Below, in pieces: positions 14,129-23,100 of a stretch of DNA of 64,000 bases. The number at the start of each line of letters is the position of its first letter. Position 1 is the stretch's first letter. The notes under the pieces were generated by a model, which made no database searches, was not told the DNA's origin, and worked only from the letters and a program-made list of their open reading frames with translations. Source of the DNA: Gaertneriomyces semiglobifer (lineage: Eukaryota; Chytridiomycota; Chytridiomycetes; Spizellomycetales; Spizellomycetaceae); assembly GCA_025558075.1 (NCBI GenBank), contig JAHLKF010000040.1, positions 23,236 to 87,235 on the forward strand, given 5' to 3'. The position numbers were made by a program, and so were the translations under genes.

Positions 14129-16807
14129 ATGCAGTACCATGACCTACGAGTTGCGATAGTGGTAATGATCATGTGGCTTGAGTTGCTCTTGTAGGCATCG
14201 TCCAGCTTCGAGTATGGTACTAATTTCCTTTCGACTCGTCGTACTTAGGATGATAACCCGGTTGTGCGTAAAATCTTGGTACGCCAACTGAAGAAGCATC
14301 ATGATATTACTGTCCGAGACGAGGATGTATACGATAATGGATTCGCATTGGTCAATGCGTTATCGACCAAGCGGTATGATTTAATATTGTTGGATATACG
14401 TGAGTAGAGCGAAAGTCTTGCGGATTGATGAACACAATGAGCCAACGGTTTCACACTTTGTCTGTTAGAGATGCCGGTCATGGGCGGCATGGAGGCCGCA
14501 TCCCGCATTCGGGAAGCTACGTGCAAGAACCGTCTCTCCACTCCTCCACAGGCACGGATGCCATCAATTGATGCTATTGCCGAGCTCCCAGCCTCATTTC
14601 CACGACATATAGAAACTACGACTTCTAGAGACGACTTGCATGTACCATCCACTACTGCGCGGGCCGCATCCCCGAATCCACCGGGCGGCAGACGAGCTAG
14701 GAGTGCTACTGTATCAGGGCCTCCGAAAGTACCAGGCTGGTTAGGCGGGTTGGCAGGTAGTAAGAGTGGTGAGAGGGGTGACTCGAGCGGGGGCCACTTG
14801 CCAAAAACGGAAGAGCTAGTTGGCAGACCAGAAGCACGCGAAAAGGAATTAGCGGGCAAACGGATATTGCAGGGAAACAGATGGGTCCCATTAGTGGCCA
14901 TTACGGATAATTATGGGACCAAGGCACAGAGAGATGTGTACCTTGCTGCTGGGTGAGTTTTATCATCTTCCCCTCCATTTCTCCGAGAAATCAGTGTTCC
15001 TCTAATCTAGATGTTGTTGAGATGGTTTATAGATATGATGAAGTTTTGTCCAAGCCATTTTCCAGTGAGCATTTTCGTAACGTGCTCGCGCAGTTCTTCT
15101 CGCACACTACCACGGGGAACTCCAGGACTGTACCACGCACTTTGAGAGATATGGATAAAAGTCGGAGTTATGACCTATTGAAGCGAGATATAGAACGAGA
15201 CAGGGATGGAGGAGAGAAGGTTGAAGTACAAGAAGACGGGAAAGTGGTGATGGTTCTGAAGCGATCGAACGAAAGGTGCGTCCGATGTTCCCAAAACAAT
15301 TTGTCGCTCTGTGCTTGATAGCTTGGGACTGATGTCCATTGTTGTTGTTGATTAGCACACGCATCATTGCTGGTACGAAATCCCACCTGCTTTCGTCCCT
15401 CCTACATCCCACCTACGGCGTCGAATATCGAAACACCTTTCTTCTTACATTCCGGCATTTCATGTCTCCTACCGATCTGTTTGCGTTTCTCGCATCGGGA
15501 TTCGACGCGGCAACGCGAGCGGTAAAGAAACGGACACTCGACATCATGAAAGCGTGGTTAGCGTATTACTGGGTAGATTTCCGATGGGACGAGGGGCTGT
15601 TAGATGAAATTGAACGGTTTCTGGAGGATCTAAGCCGCCGGAAACGACGAGGAGACTTGGGTTCCGAATGGGATGCGGATGCCGAAGAACTTCGCCATGT
15701 TATGGCGCAACAGCGGATCATGTTTCATAACCGAAGCGCTTCTGAGGAAGCACTTGACCTGAAATTCGCCAGTAATTTGGAGATTTTCCTTCCACCCGTT
15801 CTAATCAACACCCTTTCGTGCGAAGAGGTCGCACAGCAGCTGGCGTTGTTCAATTCAGGCTTGTTCCGGGATATTCATCCGGTCGAGTTTTTGAATCATA
15901 TTTGGGGGAAAAAGAGCCCGCAATTGGAACGGTTCATCAAGAGATTCGATCTAGAAAGCTATTGGGTGGCGGGCCAGATTCTAGCAGAGAAGGACTTGGG
16001 GAGGAGGACTAAGATGCTGAAGCGATGGATTATGATTGCTAAAGTAAGTACTGGCCTTCCTTGAGGTCTCGGGGGGCATTAACAGTTGCACACCTCTAAC
16101 CTCTACCACGTGTTGTAGGAATGTTTGCATTGCAAAAACTACTTTAGTGTTTTCGCCATTATGTCCGGGTTCAACCTTTCTCCCGTTCAACGGCTGAAAC
16201 AGACGTGGAATGTAGGTTTTTAGCGCTCTGCATGTCCTTGTTTGCTAGTCGCTCCCAGACTCACATTTTCATCATCCTATGAATTTGTTTTTGATAGGCT
16301 TTATCCGCCAACGCTAAAAAAGCCCACGTTGAACTTGAGCAATTCACCAACGTCAGTCGAAATTTCAAAGCGTACCGCGACATGGTGGCGAACAGTAAAC
16401 CACCCATGGTACCATTTTTACGTAAGTAATATAACACCGAAGCAAAATGTGCATCGGCCATTAGAAAACGCACGCCACCACATCTATTACTCACTGTTTT
16501 CACCGTCTGTATTTTTACTTATTTTTGACATTTTTTAGCCGTATTCATTAAGGACCTCACTTTCCTTCACGACGGGAACCCCTCTACCCTCAAACTTCCC
16601 TGCGGCACGTCCCTCATCAACTTTGACAAGCTCCGTTCAATGGCGCAACTCGTCAACGGCATTACGGAGCTGGCGAGCGTCGAGTATACGTGGTTTAATT
16701 TCATCCCTGAGGTACAGGATTTTCTGACGAGTACGCAGCCTGTGACTATGGCGAAATTGAAGGAGGCGAGTTTGGCGGTTGAGCCAAAGGAGGTTCAGAC
16801 ATCATAA
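14129..16807 (+). CDS. Receiver-domain / Ras guanine-nucleotide exchange factor fusion
   Basis: Eight exons (14129-14161, 14249-14399, 14469-14952, 15033-15275, 15356-16043, 16119-16211, 16298-16421, 16539-16807) give 694 residues with all frames joining. Residues 6-245 form a response-regulator receiver: acidic pair D12/D13 (VAIVDDNP), phospho-acceptor D60 (LILLDIQMPVMGG), Thr207 (VAITDN) and Lys230 (LSKPF). A ~115-residue Ser/Pro/Gly-rich insert lies between the D60 helix and the Thr strand. From about 290 a RasGEF_N domain follows ([28 protein letters not shown]), then a CDC25-type RasGEF domain from about 450 ([56 protein letters not shown]). Exon 4 alone encodes both the end of the receiver and the start of RasGEF_N, so the fusion is not a gene-model artefact. 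Predicted role: phosphorelay-controlled GDP/GTP exchange on a Ras GTPase. The control is inference. Confidence 0.9.
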
Positions 16808-17115: not shown

Positions 17116-20100
17116 TCACCCAAACTTGACTACCCCGACACCCCCATCAACAGCACTCCACAACCACACACTCTCCGCCTCTCCCCGTTTCTTCAGACAC
17201 CATCGTCTCACCTCCCCTAAATAATCCCTCTCACTCCTCCCCACGTCCTTCATACCCTCCACCACCCGTCGCCACGTCTCTTCATTTGCCATGTCGCTCC
17301 CATACACCAAATGGTTCAACACCGACGTCGGCAGGTCGACGGCGAATATCGGGGCAGAGGTGAGAGACTTGATGTACGCCACGATATGGTGAGCAGCGCG
17401 TTCTTTTTCCGCAAGGACTTTGGCGGACTGTCGGGTTTTGAGGGGCTTGGATTTCGGAGGCGGGATATGATGAATTTGTTTCGCGGGGATCATATAAGCG
17501 TTGGGAAACGTGTGGTTTGCGGGATGTGCCATTGTGGCGTTCATTAATGGTTTGATATGTTTCTCGTTATACCCACCTCCACCACCCCCACCACCTCCAC
17601 TCCCGCCACCACCACCACCACCCCCGCCGGTCTCCGAATCGCTGAAGAGGGTGTTGTTTCCGCAACTGGAGAGTGCACCTGCGATTTCGGCCTGAACAGC
17701 AGTGACGACTTCTGCTTTCCCAACTTCGACTTCGGATCTTAACACGAGGTTACGGACTTTGACGACCCCGTCGCGTTTGATGACTACCAAGATAATGTAC
17801 CCCGTCGCAACGAGGTTCTCCACACGCAAGATCACGTCTTGTGGGGATTCTACGTTCTCATACAGAATATCGGCGCTGAGTCCCGCGTTCCATAAATCGC
17901 TGGCGACGGACAGGCGTTCGGCTACCCCCGATTCCGAATGTGCAAACGAAACAACAAGCACATCCGCACGACGGATAGGGGGTACGTGTGCCACATCCGT
18001 TATATGATGGGATGCGTGTTTGAGTGGAAGAGACGTCGAGGTCATCAAACTCCCCACAGCTTTGGATAACGCGAAATTAAACCCTGCTCCACTCACTTTC
18101 TTCCCACCCCTTCCAAAGGGATACCTAAAATACTCTAAAAGATGATCATACCGTCCGCCTGCCGCAATAACATCAATCCCTTTACGACCCACCCCGCCCA
18201 ATTGGAACATGATCCCCCCGCGGTAATAGGATACGTTATAGGCTAGTAAGGGTGTGAACACGATTTTCACCCGTTTGTCGGGGATGACTTTTCCCAACAG
18301 TTTGCGTAGGGTTTGGAGATCGGACACGGCTTCACGGGTGTGGGATACATCCATGTCGCTGAATCGGGACATGACGTCCTCGAAATCACCTGTGAGCGTG
18401 TAAAAGCGTTCCAGGATGGGAATGCTTTCGGTTGGACACCCGTTTTTGAGAAGGTGGGTCCGAGTTTGTTGCCATGTTAGCGGTTTTTCGAGTTGTTCGA
18501 GGATGTGCAAGAGACGCTTGCGAAGGGTGTCCGAGACGGGGATGCGGGCGTGGTCGAGAATCGAGGTGAGGATGGTGCTGTGGTTCAATCGGATTTCGAG
18601 GGGGGTGACCGAGAATTTTCCGGCGGGAAGGGCTGTGGTGAGTTCATATGCGACCCGAATGACTGTGAACACGCATGAATTCGTCACAAAAACAAAAAAG
18701 TAATTCCAACAAGAACGATTTCGCCCGATAACGAAAGAGATCAACCCAAAACAAGAAAGAAAGAGAGAGAGAAAATCACATAGGTTAGCACATTCCGTAT
18801 CCAATCATGCGGATCCCAAAATTGACAGGTAGCAGCAACCAAGCAGCCACCAAACATTTACCTTCAGCCTCCACTCCCACGCCCTTCCACCCACCCTCCA
18901 CCACCACATCAAAATCACACTCCTGCACACACCTCGGATGTCCACCCGCCGGATTAATCCTCCACACATTCCCAACCTCATACCGCTTCACAACGCCACT
19001 CACCCCCTCTCTAGCAACCAACCTCGCCCACCCCACTGTCAAATCATACGGCAACCTGACCGCGCCTCCATCCGTCACCACCTCCACACACTTCTTGAGA
19101 CCGCCAAACATCACGTCTGTCGCGGCGGATTCGGTTTTGGGAAGGAAAGTGAGGCCCCGGATCTCGACCGCCCCGTGGCGTTTGAAGATCGACAGGAGAC
19201 GCGGGAGGAGCGTGCGGCAGATGAGGGATTCGTAGGGGGAGATTATTTGGGATGAGGAGTACTCGTAGGTGTAGTCCTTGTGTTTGTCGACGGGCGTTTG
19301 GAGGAGGGTGTGGACGAGACGTGAGTAGTAGGTGGAGCTGGAAGGGTTGGTGGGGGCAAGGAGGTTGGTGAGAGCTGTTGTAACATATTCCTCTTCCTGA
19401 AATAGAAGAGATACGCGTAAGTGATAACGTAGAGATCACGGAAATCGCTGTGGGTAGATGAATCGTAGGATGATGGGTGAACCTAAAACGATCCTTCCCC
19501 CACTTCCACTAGAACATCGCCCATGACTGCTCAGCACTTAGCACTTACAACCCAAGGACGCGTCATAGCTAACCATTGCACCAATTACCTGGAAACCTCC
19601 AAACCACGTCCAACAAGGCAAACCCAAAAACTACCTCCCACCCAAAACGCCCAATTCCTCAACTTTCCCATAACCAATATCAAAAACTCACCATTTTCGC
19701 CGGCACAAGTCCACTCGCCAACAACTCTTTACTCGTCGGTCGCTCCTTAGGTTCATGTGCCAACAACCATTTCAAAATCTTTTCCTGTGCTTCATACCGC
19801 TTCCGATCGAAATCACTCGGAAACACGACACTCGGGGTCCGGAGGTCTCGTAATACGATCGCACGGTGCATGCCGGTCGTAAACGGGTAAATCATTTCAA
19901 AAAACCTATACATATCACCAAAAAAACAAAAAAGGGGGAAAAACAAAGACAGTGAGAAAACTTTTAACGCGAAAACAAACAAGGACTTGAGAGAGAGAAA
20001 ATACGTACAGGATACCCAGACTGTACATATCCACTTTGGAATTATACTTTCCGCCTTTGACCACCTCTGGAGCCACATACACAGGAGTTCCCACCTCTTC

Positions 20101-23100
20101 CGTGAAACTCGCTTCCATATCCCCCACACTCGACATCCCTTCTCCCCCACCGCTCAAACCAGCATGACCACCACCAGTAGTAGTAGTTGCAATGTTCACC
20201 CCACCGTCATCCCCACCAGCCCCACCCGCCATCTCCTCATTCCGACTCATCGCCAACCCAAAATCGCCGATTTTGACATTGGCGTTTTTATCAAGAAAGA
20301 CGTTACTGGGTTTCAGGTCGCGATGGATCATGCCTTGGGAATGAATATGTGCGAGTCCTTCAAGAACCTGTCGGAAGAGACGCCACGATTCGTCTTCGTC
20401 CAGACCTTCAGAAATGACGTCGCGTAGGGTTTTGCGTTCGCAGTATTCCATTTGGATGTAGAGGATGCGGAAGCGTCTTTGTGGGTGTCGGTGGTCGGTT
20501 GTAGTTGAGAGGCGGTGGTGGGAGTCGGTGGGAGAGGAGAGGGTTGCTGTTGTTGTGGTGGTGGTTTTTTTGGGTGTGGAGGAAGGAGAGGAGGGGTTGG
20601 AGTGTGCGAATGTGATGGAGATGTTGGAGAGACTGTGGTTGGTGTGTTGTTTAGAAAGAGAGGCGCTGGCGAGCCAGTCACTGGAGAAGGTATCGAGGTC
20701 AGATTCCGAATGAAGGTTTCCAAAGTCCTCATCTTCATCATCATCTTCATCATCATCTTCATCATCATCATCGTCGTCGCTATCGGCTTCCTCGGAATCA
20801 CTACTGCCACTCTCGGTAGACGCATCCCCCTCAGACAAAGACTCTGACTCATCAGCCGAGGATCGCATATGAGAAGACGACCCAAACGCTCCATCAGATT
20901 CAGAAACCTCCTCATCGCTTCCACCTCCCACTCCACCATCGCCATCCTCCCACCACGCCTGATAGTATCTCACCACATACTGATGATGCAACCTACTCAA
21001 CGTCGTGACTTCCCGCATGATCCGCTTACTCCCCTCTCCTTCCTTCACGTCCCACCGAATCTTTTTGATGGCATACTCGCGTCCATCCACGCGATGTCGC
21101 GCCTTGACAACCTCCCCAAACCCACCGCGTCCGATGAACTCGAGCTCGATGAAATCCTGATGGTATCGCGAGTGCGAGGGATACGTGTTCGTCATGGACA
21201 GGGGAGACGGTTTCTTGGGTGTCGAAGGGGGTAACCGTGGGATTGCCGGAGAATGCGACGCGGATTTCAAGACCTGAAACGCAACAGGGAGCGGGTTCAT
21301 CCCGCCTCCCAACCCACCACCTCCATGGGACGGAGAAATGGGATGCGTCAGGAACGGGTGTTGGAGGAGCTCCAAGGCCGCAAGACGCTCCTTCGGATCT
21401 CGACGTAACATTTTTCCCACCATATCACGAAACGCGCTGGGCATGTCGCTTGCGGTGATGGTGTCGAATAAGGAGTGGGGATTGGCATAGGTGTAGATAT
21501 CGCGGCCGTACACCATTTCGAGGGCGGTACGGCCGAGGTTGAAGATATCGGCTTTGCGGCCGTACACACCGGGACGTTGCAAGAGTTCCGGGGCGGTCCA
21601 TCCGGGTGGGACCGGTTCTTCTTCTGGTAACGAAGGATGTAGCGGGCGAGTTTTATGCAGATCAAGGAGTTTTCGTGCATAGAGGGGGTCAGCGAGTTTG
21701 ATCTCTTCATCGGGATTGGAAGCGAGGAAAAACAAAATGTTTCGCGCGGTAATGTTTTTGTGAATGTGGTTTTGGGAGTGTAGGTATGCAACGGCTTTGA
21801 GGAGCTGGGTGATATAAGTTCGGGCAACGGCCAGTTTGACGCCACCACTGCGATGGATCAGGTCGGCAAGACTTCCTCCACGGCAGTGGTCAAGGAGGAT
21901 CTCGAGTTCCCAGAATTGCTGCTCGGTGCGAGAGATGCGCGTGTCGTACACGGTCACCATGTTGGGATGTCGAATTGTAGTGAGCTTCTGAATTTCAGAG
22001 TAAATGTCGAGCAGTTTCTTCTTGCCGTCGCCGGAAAGGTAGTATGAGTTTGAGATGAGGATTTGCTTGAGAATAAGGTAGTCATCGGGTGTTGCGGTTT
22101 TCGCAAAATCATCAATGCGGACAACGAAAAGGGAACTCAAGATGCCTATAAAGGATACGCCTTTTGAGCTCGACGCCACATACGATGATTGAAACCAAGT
22201 TGACCCACCCTTGTGAATTCTAGGGCCTTTGACCACTTTTTCCAGCGATACCTGCTTCTCCTCTCTTTTCACCAACTGCGGCTTCTCCTCATCCTCATCC
22301 GCAAACGCTGCGTCGCTCTCGCCTTTCGCTTCCTTTTTCCACCGTGCTCGTTCTTCCTTGACTGCTCGACGTTTGCGTTCTAGCTCTTCCTGGACCAAGC
22401 GCTCCATTTCGTCTTTTTCTTCCATCCACTGTGTTTGTTCGACTTGTCGTTCTTGTTCCTCGTCCTGTTGCTTTTGGCGTAAAAGTTCCTCGGCCTCGGC
22501 CGTGCGTCGGTCCCGCATTTGGTCAAAGAAGGAAAGAGGTTTCTTGGGAGAAATCGGAGAGAGAGTGTTGTGCGTCATGATGTAATCTTGGATGAAATTC
22601 GCAATATCATATATCTGCAAAGCAAAGGGATCAGCTGGCGTATCTATATGCTTTGGCTGTCTTCCGTTATGTGCGTCCAGATCCACACACACACATGCCA
22701 CGCACAGATACACACACACACAAAACACACACGGACAGATACACACACACAAAACACACACGGACAGATACACACAACACATACACACAACATATACACA
22801 AGCAACTGACCATTTCACTCCCAACCAAAGTTTTAGCATACTGTCCCACTTCCCGATTCAAATCCTCCACTTGACGGTCACTCACACCCCTCACGCCATG
22901 AACCTCCAGTTTAGGCACCTCCTCCGGATACTTTTTCCCAAAGCGCACGCGTAACTCGACCTTGACCCTCTCCCTGTTAACCTCGCCATGGGGCACGAGG
23001 TTCAGACAATACTCAAAGGCGGGCGCGACCTTCCAAGCGCTCTGGACAGGGACAATACGTTGCGTGAAATCGTCCATGTAGATGGCTTTGAGTGCTTGGA

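Follow-up and report, generated by a model that had tools for sequence, protein, structure and literature searches.

A chytrid gene predicted to join a response regulator receiver to a Ras-family guanine nucleotide exchange factor

Where two-component relays connect to Ras GTPases at all, they usually do so via several steps. In yeast, the receivers of Ssk1 and Skn7 end relays of the Sln1-Ypd1 type and that of Rim15 is joined to a kinase, so that the outputs are MAPKKK binding, DNA binding or protein kinase activity, not guanine nucleotide exchange. A locus in the chytrid Gaertneriomyces semiglobifer raises the question of whether a relay could act on a Ras-type GTPase more directly. It lies in a stretch of 64,000 nucleotides (assembly GCA_025558075.1, contig JAHLKF010000040.1), hereafter the window, for which a first-pass annotation had proposed a single product with a receiver domain ahead of RasGEF_N and CDC25-type RasGEF domains. 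Is this one gene, and could exchange activity be the output of its receiver?

The proposed gene model holds: eight exons join in frame to give 694 residues and a stop, and all seven introns, of 69-117 nt, are of the GT-AG type. The features of the gene and its product are as follows.

14129..16807, + strand: whole gene, 8 exons, 694 aa, in-frame join with GT-AG introns of 69-117 nt; 92% identical over the full length to P0001
14129-14161, 14249-14399, 14469-14952, 15033-15275, 15356-16043, 16119-16211, 16298-16421 and 16539-16807, + strand: exons
14141..14518, + strand: receiver part 1, residues 5-78, split by two introns; Pfam Response_reg E 2e-17, receiver profile 88.7 bits
14249-14254, + strand: acidic D12/D13, in receiver part 1
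14393-14395, + strand: phospho-acceptor D60, in receiver part 1
14519..14860, + strand: insert within the receiver, residues 79-192, flanked by two receiver matches
14861..15099, + strand: receiver part 2, residues 193-245, split by one intron; receiver profile 30.4 bits, same part matched by Pfam in P0004
14903-14905 and 15052-15054, + strand: T207 and K230, in receiver part 2, both invariant in seven of seven fused proteins
15100..15362, + strand: linker, residues 246-306, split by one intron; residues 246-300 identical at 53/55 in the sister species
15363..15620, + strand: RasGEF_N (REM), residues 307-392; Pfam PF00618, E 5.9e-12, 46.2 bits
15825..16636, + strand: catalytic RasGEF (CDC25), residues 461-638, four exons; Pfam PF00617, E 1.5e-56, 191.6 bits, profile positions 1-181 of 181

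Response_reg (residues 8-78, E 2e-17), RasGEF_N and RasGEF all score above the curated Pfam cut-offs and stand in the order first proposed, and their E-values rule out chance similarity. RasGEF_N and a full-length RasGEF are both present, as in CDC25-type GEFs. Among the NCBIfam matches listed, the only ones were those of the receiver to bacterial models, far below their cut-offs. The exon at 15033-15275 does encode the end of the receiver, as the first-pass annotation had it, together with linker (residues 223-304), but not the start of RasGEF_N, as the Pfam match begins a few residues further on, at 307.

Tail to tail with this gene, on the minus strand of the window (17116-18804 and 19915-22857), a frame with histidyl-tRNA-synthetase-like and anticodon-binding-like domains adjoins a protein kinase frame, which together we take to be, probably, the eIF2-alpha kinase Gcn2. 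A long glycine run lies within the histidyl-tRNA-synthetase-like frame, at about 17570-17640 on the minus strand.

Absence of the fusion from close relatives had been set beforehand as an observation that would speak against it; instead, it is carried by six proteins in the database, which belong to four named taxa of chytrids. They came from a search with the RasGEF part, in which 74 of 7807 candidates reached E <= 0.001, six of these also having a receiver. The closest protein found was P0001 from Gaertneriomyces sp. JEL0708, with 92% identity along the entire protein; the receiver and RasGEF combination was also found in P0002 and P0004 from Rhizophlyctis rosea, P0003 and P0069 from Geranomyces variabilis and P0067 from Geranomyces michiganensis. 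Gaertneriomyces and Geranomyces represent two families of Spizellomycetales and Rhizophlyctis belongs to Rhizophlyctidales, placing the fusion in two chytrid orders. Five of the six are named hypothetical protein in the database and one Rap guanine nucleotide exchange factor 6. When rescanned with Pfam all six had RasGEF, and five each had Response_reg and RasGEF_N above the cut-off, the exceptions being the receiver of P0067 (29.1 bits, cut-off 30.2) and the RasGEF_N of P0069 (20.0 bits, cut-off 28.3). In the gene models of P0004, P0067 and P0069 the N-terminus is short or altered, with the first receiver residues missing or changed.

The best five RasGEF relatives without a receiver are of an RBD-RasGEF_N-RasGEF type known from chytrid and blastocladian proteins (P0005, P0068, P0070, P0071 and others), in which a Raf-like Ras-binding domain (PF02196) takes the place of the receiver; this assignment was precomputed for the RBD proteins, and P0005 and P0068 were rescanned with Pfam. 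An alignment-based search scored 8000 candidates, mostly bacterial receivers, and the best 120 of its 189 matches include P0001 and are without P0002, P0003, P0004, P0067 and P0069, all of which were in its query, making it uninformative on absence elsewhere. Within the genome no second receiver-RasGEF gene was seen on comparing the places of the 25 RasGEF and 31 Response_reg exon matches; this test is weak, since the receiver in the window also escaped that exon-by-exon search.

The receiver itself is split. The Pfam Response_reg match in the protein covers only profile positions 1-67 of 111, and a custom receiver profile, not fully independent in that it was built from matches to this very receiver among 170 proteins, matched both parts (88.7 bits and, for the second at residues 193-245, 30.4 bits). 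Independent support is given by P0004, in which Pfam itself finds the second part (profile positions 62-108, 32.1 bits). Since receiver matches lie on both sides, residues 79-192 are read as an insert of ~114 residues, which by its position would sit between alpha-3 and beta-4. The first description of the receiver had left this insert unmentioned, although it had the catalytic positions right, with D12/D13, D60, T207 and K230 all found in the translated protein where they had been placed. As both receiver parts and all five catalytic positions are there, a degenerate receiver was ruled out.

Across the seven fused proteins (the six relatives and that of the window) D60, T207 and K230 are always present and D12/D13 are present in four, the other three having gaps there. 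Y or F is common in receivers at the position three before the lysine; all seven have V or I (V227 in the window), so the classical receiver switch may differ. The insert holds one conserved basic Ser/Thr block, at residues 137-144, in which R137, R139 and S144 are invariant in the seven. The pattern RxRxx[ST] occurs in the inserts of 7/7, with a chance of 9-25% per shuffled insert and only three lineages compared, and the stricter PKA pattern RRx[ST] in 2/7, the protein of the window not being one of them; as a putative kinase site, its conservation is suggestive only.

Could the apparent fusion be an artefact of the gene model, with two adjacent genes, one for a receiver and one for a RasGEF, read as one? 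The model was drawn from sequence alone, which leaves room for such an error, but the exons are phase-consistent and run through the linker, and the conservation of that linker speaks against two genes. The protein of the window and that of the sister species, Gaertneriomyces sp. JEL0708, share 73/74 residues in the first part of the receiver and 51/53 in the second; the counts are 87/112 for the insert, 53/55 for the linker, 92/100 for residues 301-400 and 228/240 for residues 455-694. The linker is poorly conserved between genera (9/51 against P0002 and 3/26 against P0003), so that it appears to be held like a domain over the sister-species distance and not beyond. One-gene status is better supported by a linker that changed so little while the insert diverged, and by six gene models elsewhere that show this fusion too, than by the exon at 15033-15275; the trees of the two halves, which are compatible with a single origin, point the same way. 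The two-gene artefact was dropped on the strength of linker conservation and the recurrence of the fusion, and we regard it as hardly credible. As far as can be judged from sequence, it is confirmed that 14129..16807 is a single gene predicted to encode a receiver with its five catalytic positions and a complete RasGEF_N/RasGEF.

In a RasGEF tree of 33 rows the six fused rows used form one clade (98/97.7), and in a quick tree of 45 rows all seven fall together (SH-aLRT 97); both were rooted on SH3-type rows. The fused and RBD families group at 63/40 in the 33-row tree, leaving the sister group of the fused clade unsettled. In a receiver tree of 29 rows, six fused rows are joined by two stand-alone receivers from this genome, on contigs C6 and C21 (98/97), and the fused rows alone group at 90/87. 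The C21 receiver has extra residues at the place of the insert, as does that of C6 in shorter form. Several independent fusions are unsupported, the fused proteins being a single clade in the trees of both halves, with only 90/87 for the receiver clade alone. The trees fit, for the few genomes available, a simplest history in which an insert-bearing stand-alone receiver would have fused once to a RasGEF before Spizellomycetales and Rhizophlyctidales split.

These related stand-alone receivers lie at about 590.6 kb of C6 (L034) and at about 42.6-43.4 kb of C21, on the minus strand (L036), and no RasGEF match was found in the 5.0 and 4.5 kb examined for them, respectively. The frame on C6 has a Ser-rich tail at its end and no output domain recognisable by eye. 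A RasGEF of the same genome (L035, C1, about 870 kb) clusters with the RBD-RasGEF family in both RasGEF trees, so the fused and RBD kinds probably coexist in the genome.

Candidate partners for a relay are encoded in the same genome. The genome (20.86 Mb in 66 contigs) was searched by exon-by-exon profile matching, which misses split domains. It gave 31 Response_reg, 27 HATPase_c and 25 RasGEF exon matches; 17 of the 27 HATPase_c matches, read by eye, have a Response_reg match on their own strand no more than about 2 kb away, and kinase domains adjoining a receiver in this way are probably hybrid kinases. A single HPt match came up at E <= 0.1, on the minus strand at C23:42492-42743; its presumed phosphohistidine lies in LGHFLKGSSA, and as the same search missed the window's own receiver it may not be the only HPt of the genome. 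Five places have 53-67% identity over at least 109 residues to a human HRAS query and are candidates for Ras or Rap/Rsr1 GTPases (C17:224269, C14:239982, C11:211818, C15:423973 and C54:8399). Hybrid kinases, HPt and Ras-type GTPases being encoded, a circuit from relay to Ras is possible, which does not imply that they are connected.

Four receiver-domain frames of this genome (G000), on C21, C45, C24 and C35 (L014, L015, L016 and L017), are alike, those of L014-L016 being 266 aa long and that of L017 differing from them and containing a stop. The frame beside the L014 receiver looks by eye like adenovirus-type fibre shaft repeats, which suggests an endogenous Polinton-like element carrying a response-regulator receiver.

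We consider it probable (approximately 60%) that the protein is a true response regulator whose output is a Ras-family exchange factor, the activity of which would be set by a His-Asp relay. Hybrid kinases would pass phosphate through the one detected HPt protein to D60 in a multistep relay, and phosphorylation of D60 would determine how active the exchange domain is towards a GTPase of the Ras subfamily. The direction may be either. In Ssk1 the unphosphorylated form is the active one; we lean somewhat towards the reverse, in which an unphosphorylated receiver would restrain the GEF and phosphorylation would release it, by analogy with Dictyostelium RegA, described in the available sections of PMC11988041 as activated by phosphotransfer through RdeA. 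A kinase of the AGC family (PKA or Sch9 type) might feed back via the basic Ser/Thr site of the insert, which is a guess. The fuller scenario, i.e., a one-time junction of a stand-alone receiver and a RasGEF in the ancestor of Spizellomycetales and Rhizophlyctidales, exchange switched by hybrid kinases directly via D60, and a second input at the AGC-kinase-like site, is put forward tentatively, at rather less than even odds.

The receiver might instead place the GEF and leave catalysis ungated, with phosphorylation, or the lack of it, altering dimerisation or docking (close to the membrane or to hybrid kinases, for instance) and GTPase activation thereby kept local. RasGEF proteins often depend on recruitment, and a long insert and linker that are poorly conserved between genera are more in keeping with a flexible tether than with a tight allosteric contact. 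However, Pfam found no membrane or docking domain in the fused protein at E up to 0.1 and the linker is almost unchanged in the sister pair, and we judge this reading unlikely. More doubtful still is a receiver that works independently of phosphorylation, as a binding module or a phosphate sink of the relay, with the GEF controlled otherwise, e.g., at the Ser/Thr site of the insert. The unusual V227 at the switch position and the presence of an insert of such length inside the receiver would suit it, but both orders have retained the catalytic positions (D12/D13 as far as the models extend) while receiver identity outside the sister pair fell to 37-53%, which argues for kept phospho-chemistry.

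Compatible with a relay-gated GEF, though bearing on its substrate, is a GTPase of the Rap/Rsr1 type, with polarity-like functions, in place of Ras. The catalytic CDC25 domain can be aligned with those of Epac2 (PDB 3cf6) and yeast Cdc25 (7nzz; seen with P0001 as query), which are gated by cAMP-binding domains or other partners and are not known to have a receiver. The best solved relative is Epac2 (RapGEF4; E 4e-33, 117.9 bits), ahead of Cdc25 (E 8.4e-31, 110.3 bits) by a small gap. One branch of the 33-row tree (95/89) sets the fused, the RBD and two RapGEF2 rows from metazoans apart from the SH3-type RasGEFs of fungi and other rows. The branch leading to the RapGEF2 rows is, however, very long (1.76), with their place within that group unsettled, and another Rap exchange factor, Epac1 of frog, lies outside when 45 rows are used. 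A Rap-type substrate is a serious candidate, if not quite an even bet.

Among known systems RegA is nearest in wiring, and the RomR/RomX pair of Myxococcus is nearest in pairing a receiver protein with GEF activity; the architecture differs in both. To our knowledge RegA has no insert of this kind, and RomR/RomX is without a CDC25 domain. As described in the available sections of the sources, RegA is a single protein in which a signalling enzyme, its direct output, follows a receiver (PMC11988041, PMC4758236), and histidine kinases feed it via a single HPt, RdeA (PMC11988041), as in the wiring proposed here. Its output, in contrast, is hydrolysis of cAMP by a phosphodiesterase, not nucleotide exchange (PMC11988041, PMC4758236). 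The first-pass annotation's point that the output is other than a MAPK cascade is therefore less singular than implied, since receivers fused to signalling enzymes exist, RegA being one (PMC11988041). RomR/RomX likewise puts a receiver-domain protein in a GEF complex for a Ras-like GTPase, MglA, but is bacterial and consists of two proteins (available sections of PMC7332107, PMC6785124).

That annotation had also known of no described protein with this domain order, and we found none in a search of 5.39 million open-access papers, a coverage outside which most subscription papers and bioRxiv preprints lie. Response regulators as a kind are known; in the same literature, a RasGEF as their output was not found described. 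In the available text of PMC5285503, on the hybrid kinases of early fungi, the terms 'response regulator' and 'Ras' are absent.

One gene would here join two signalling systems that are usually regarded as separate, the bacterial-type two-component system and the Ras-type GTPase. If the proposed reading is true, the output of the response regulator would be the Ras-family exchange factor itself, a one-step link that could be tested with few purified proteins and would provide a natural blueprint for GTPase switches gated by a phosphorelay. It would also show what the environmental kinases of zoosporic fungi control.
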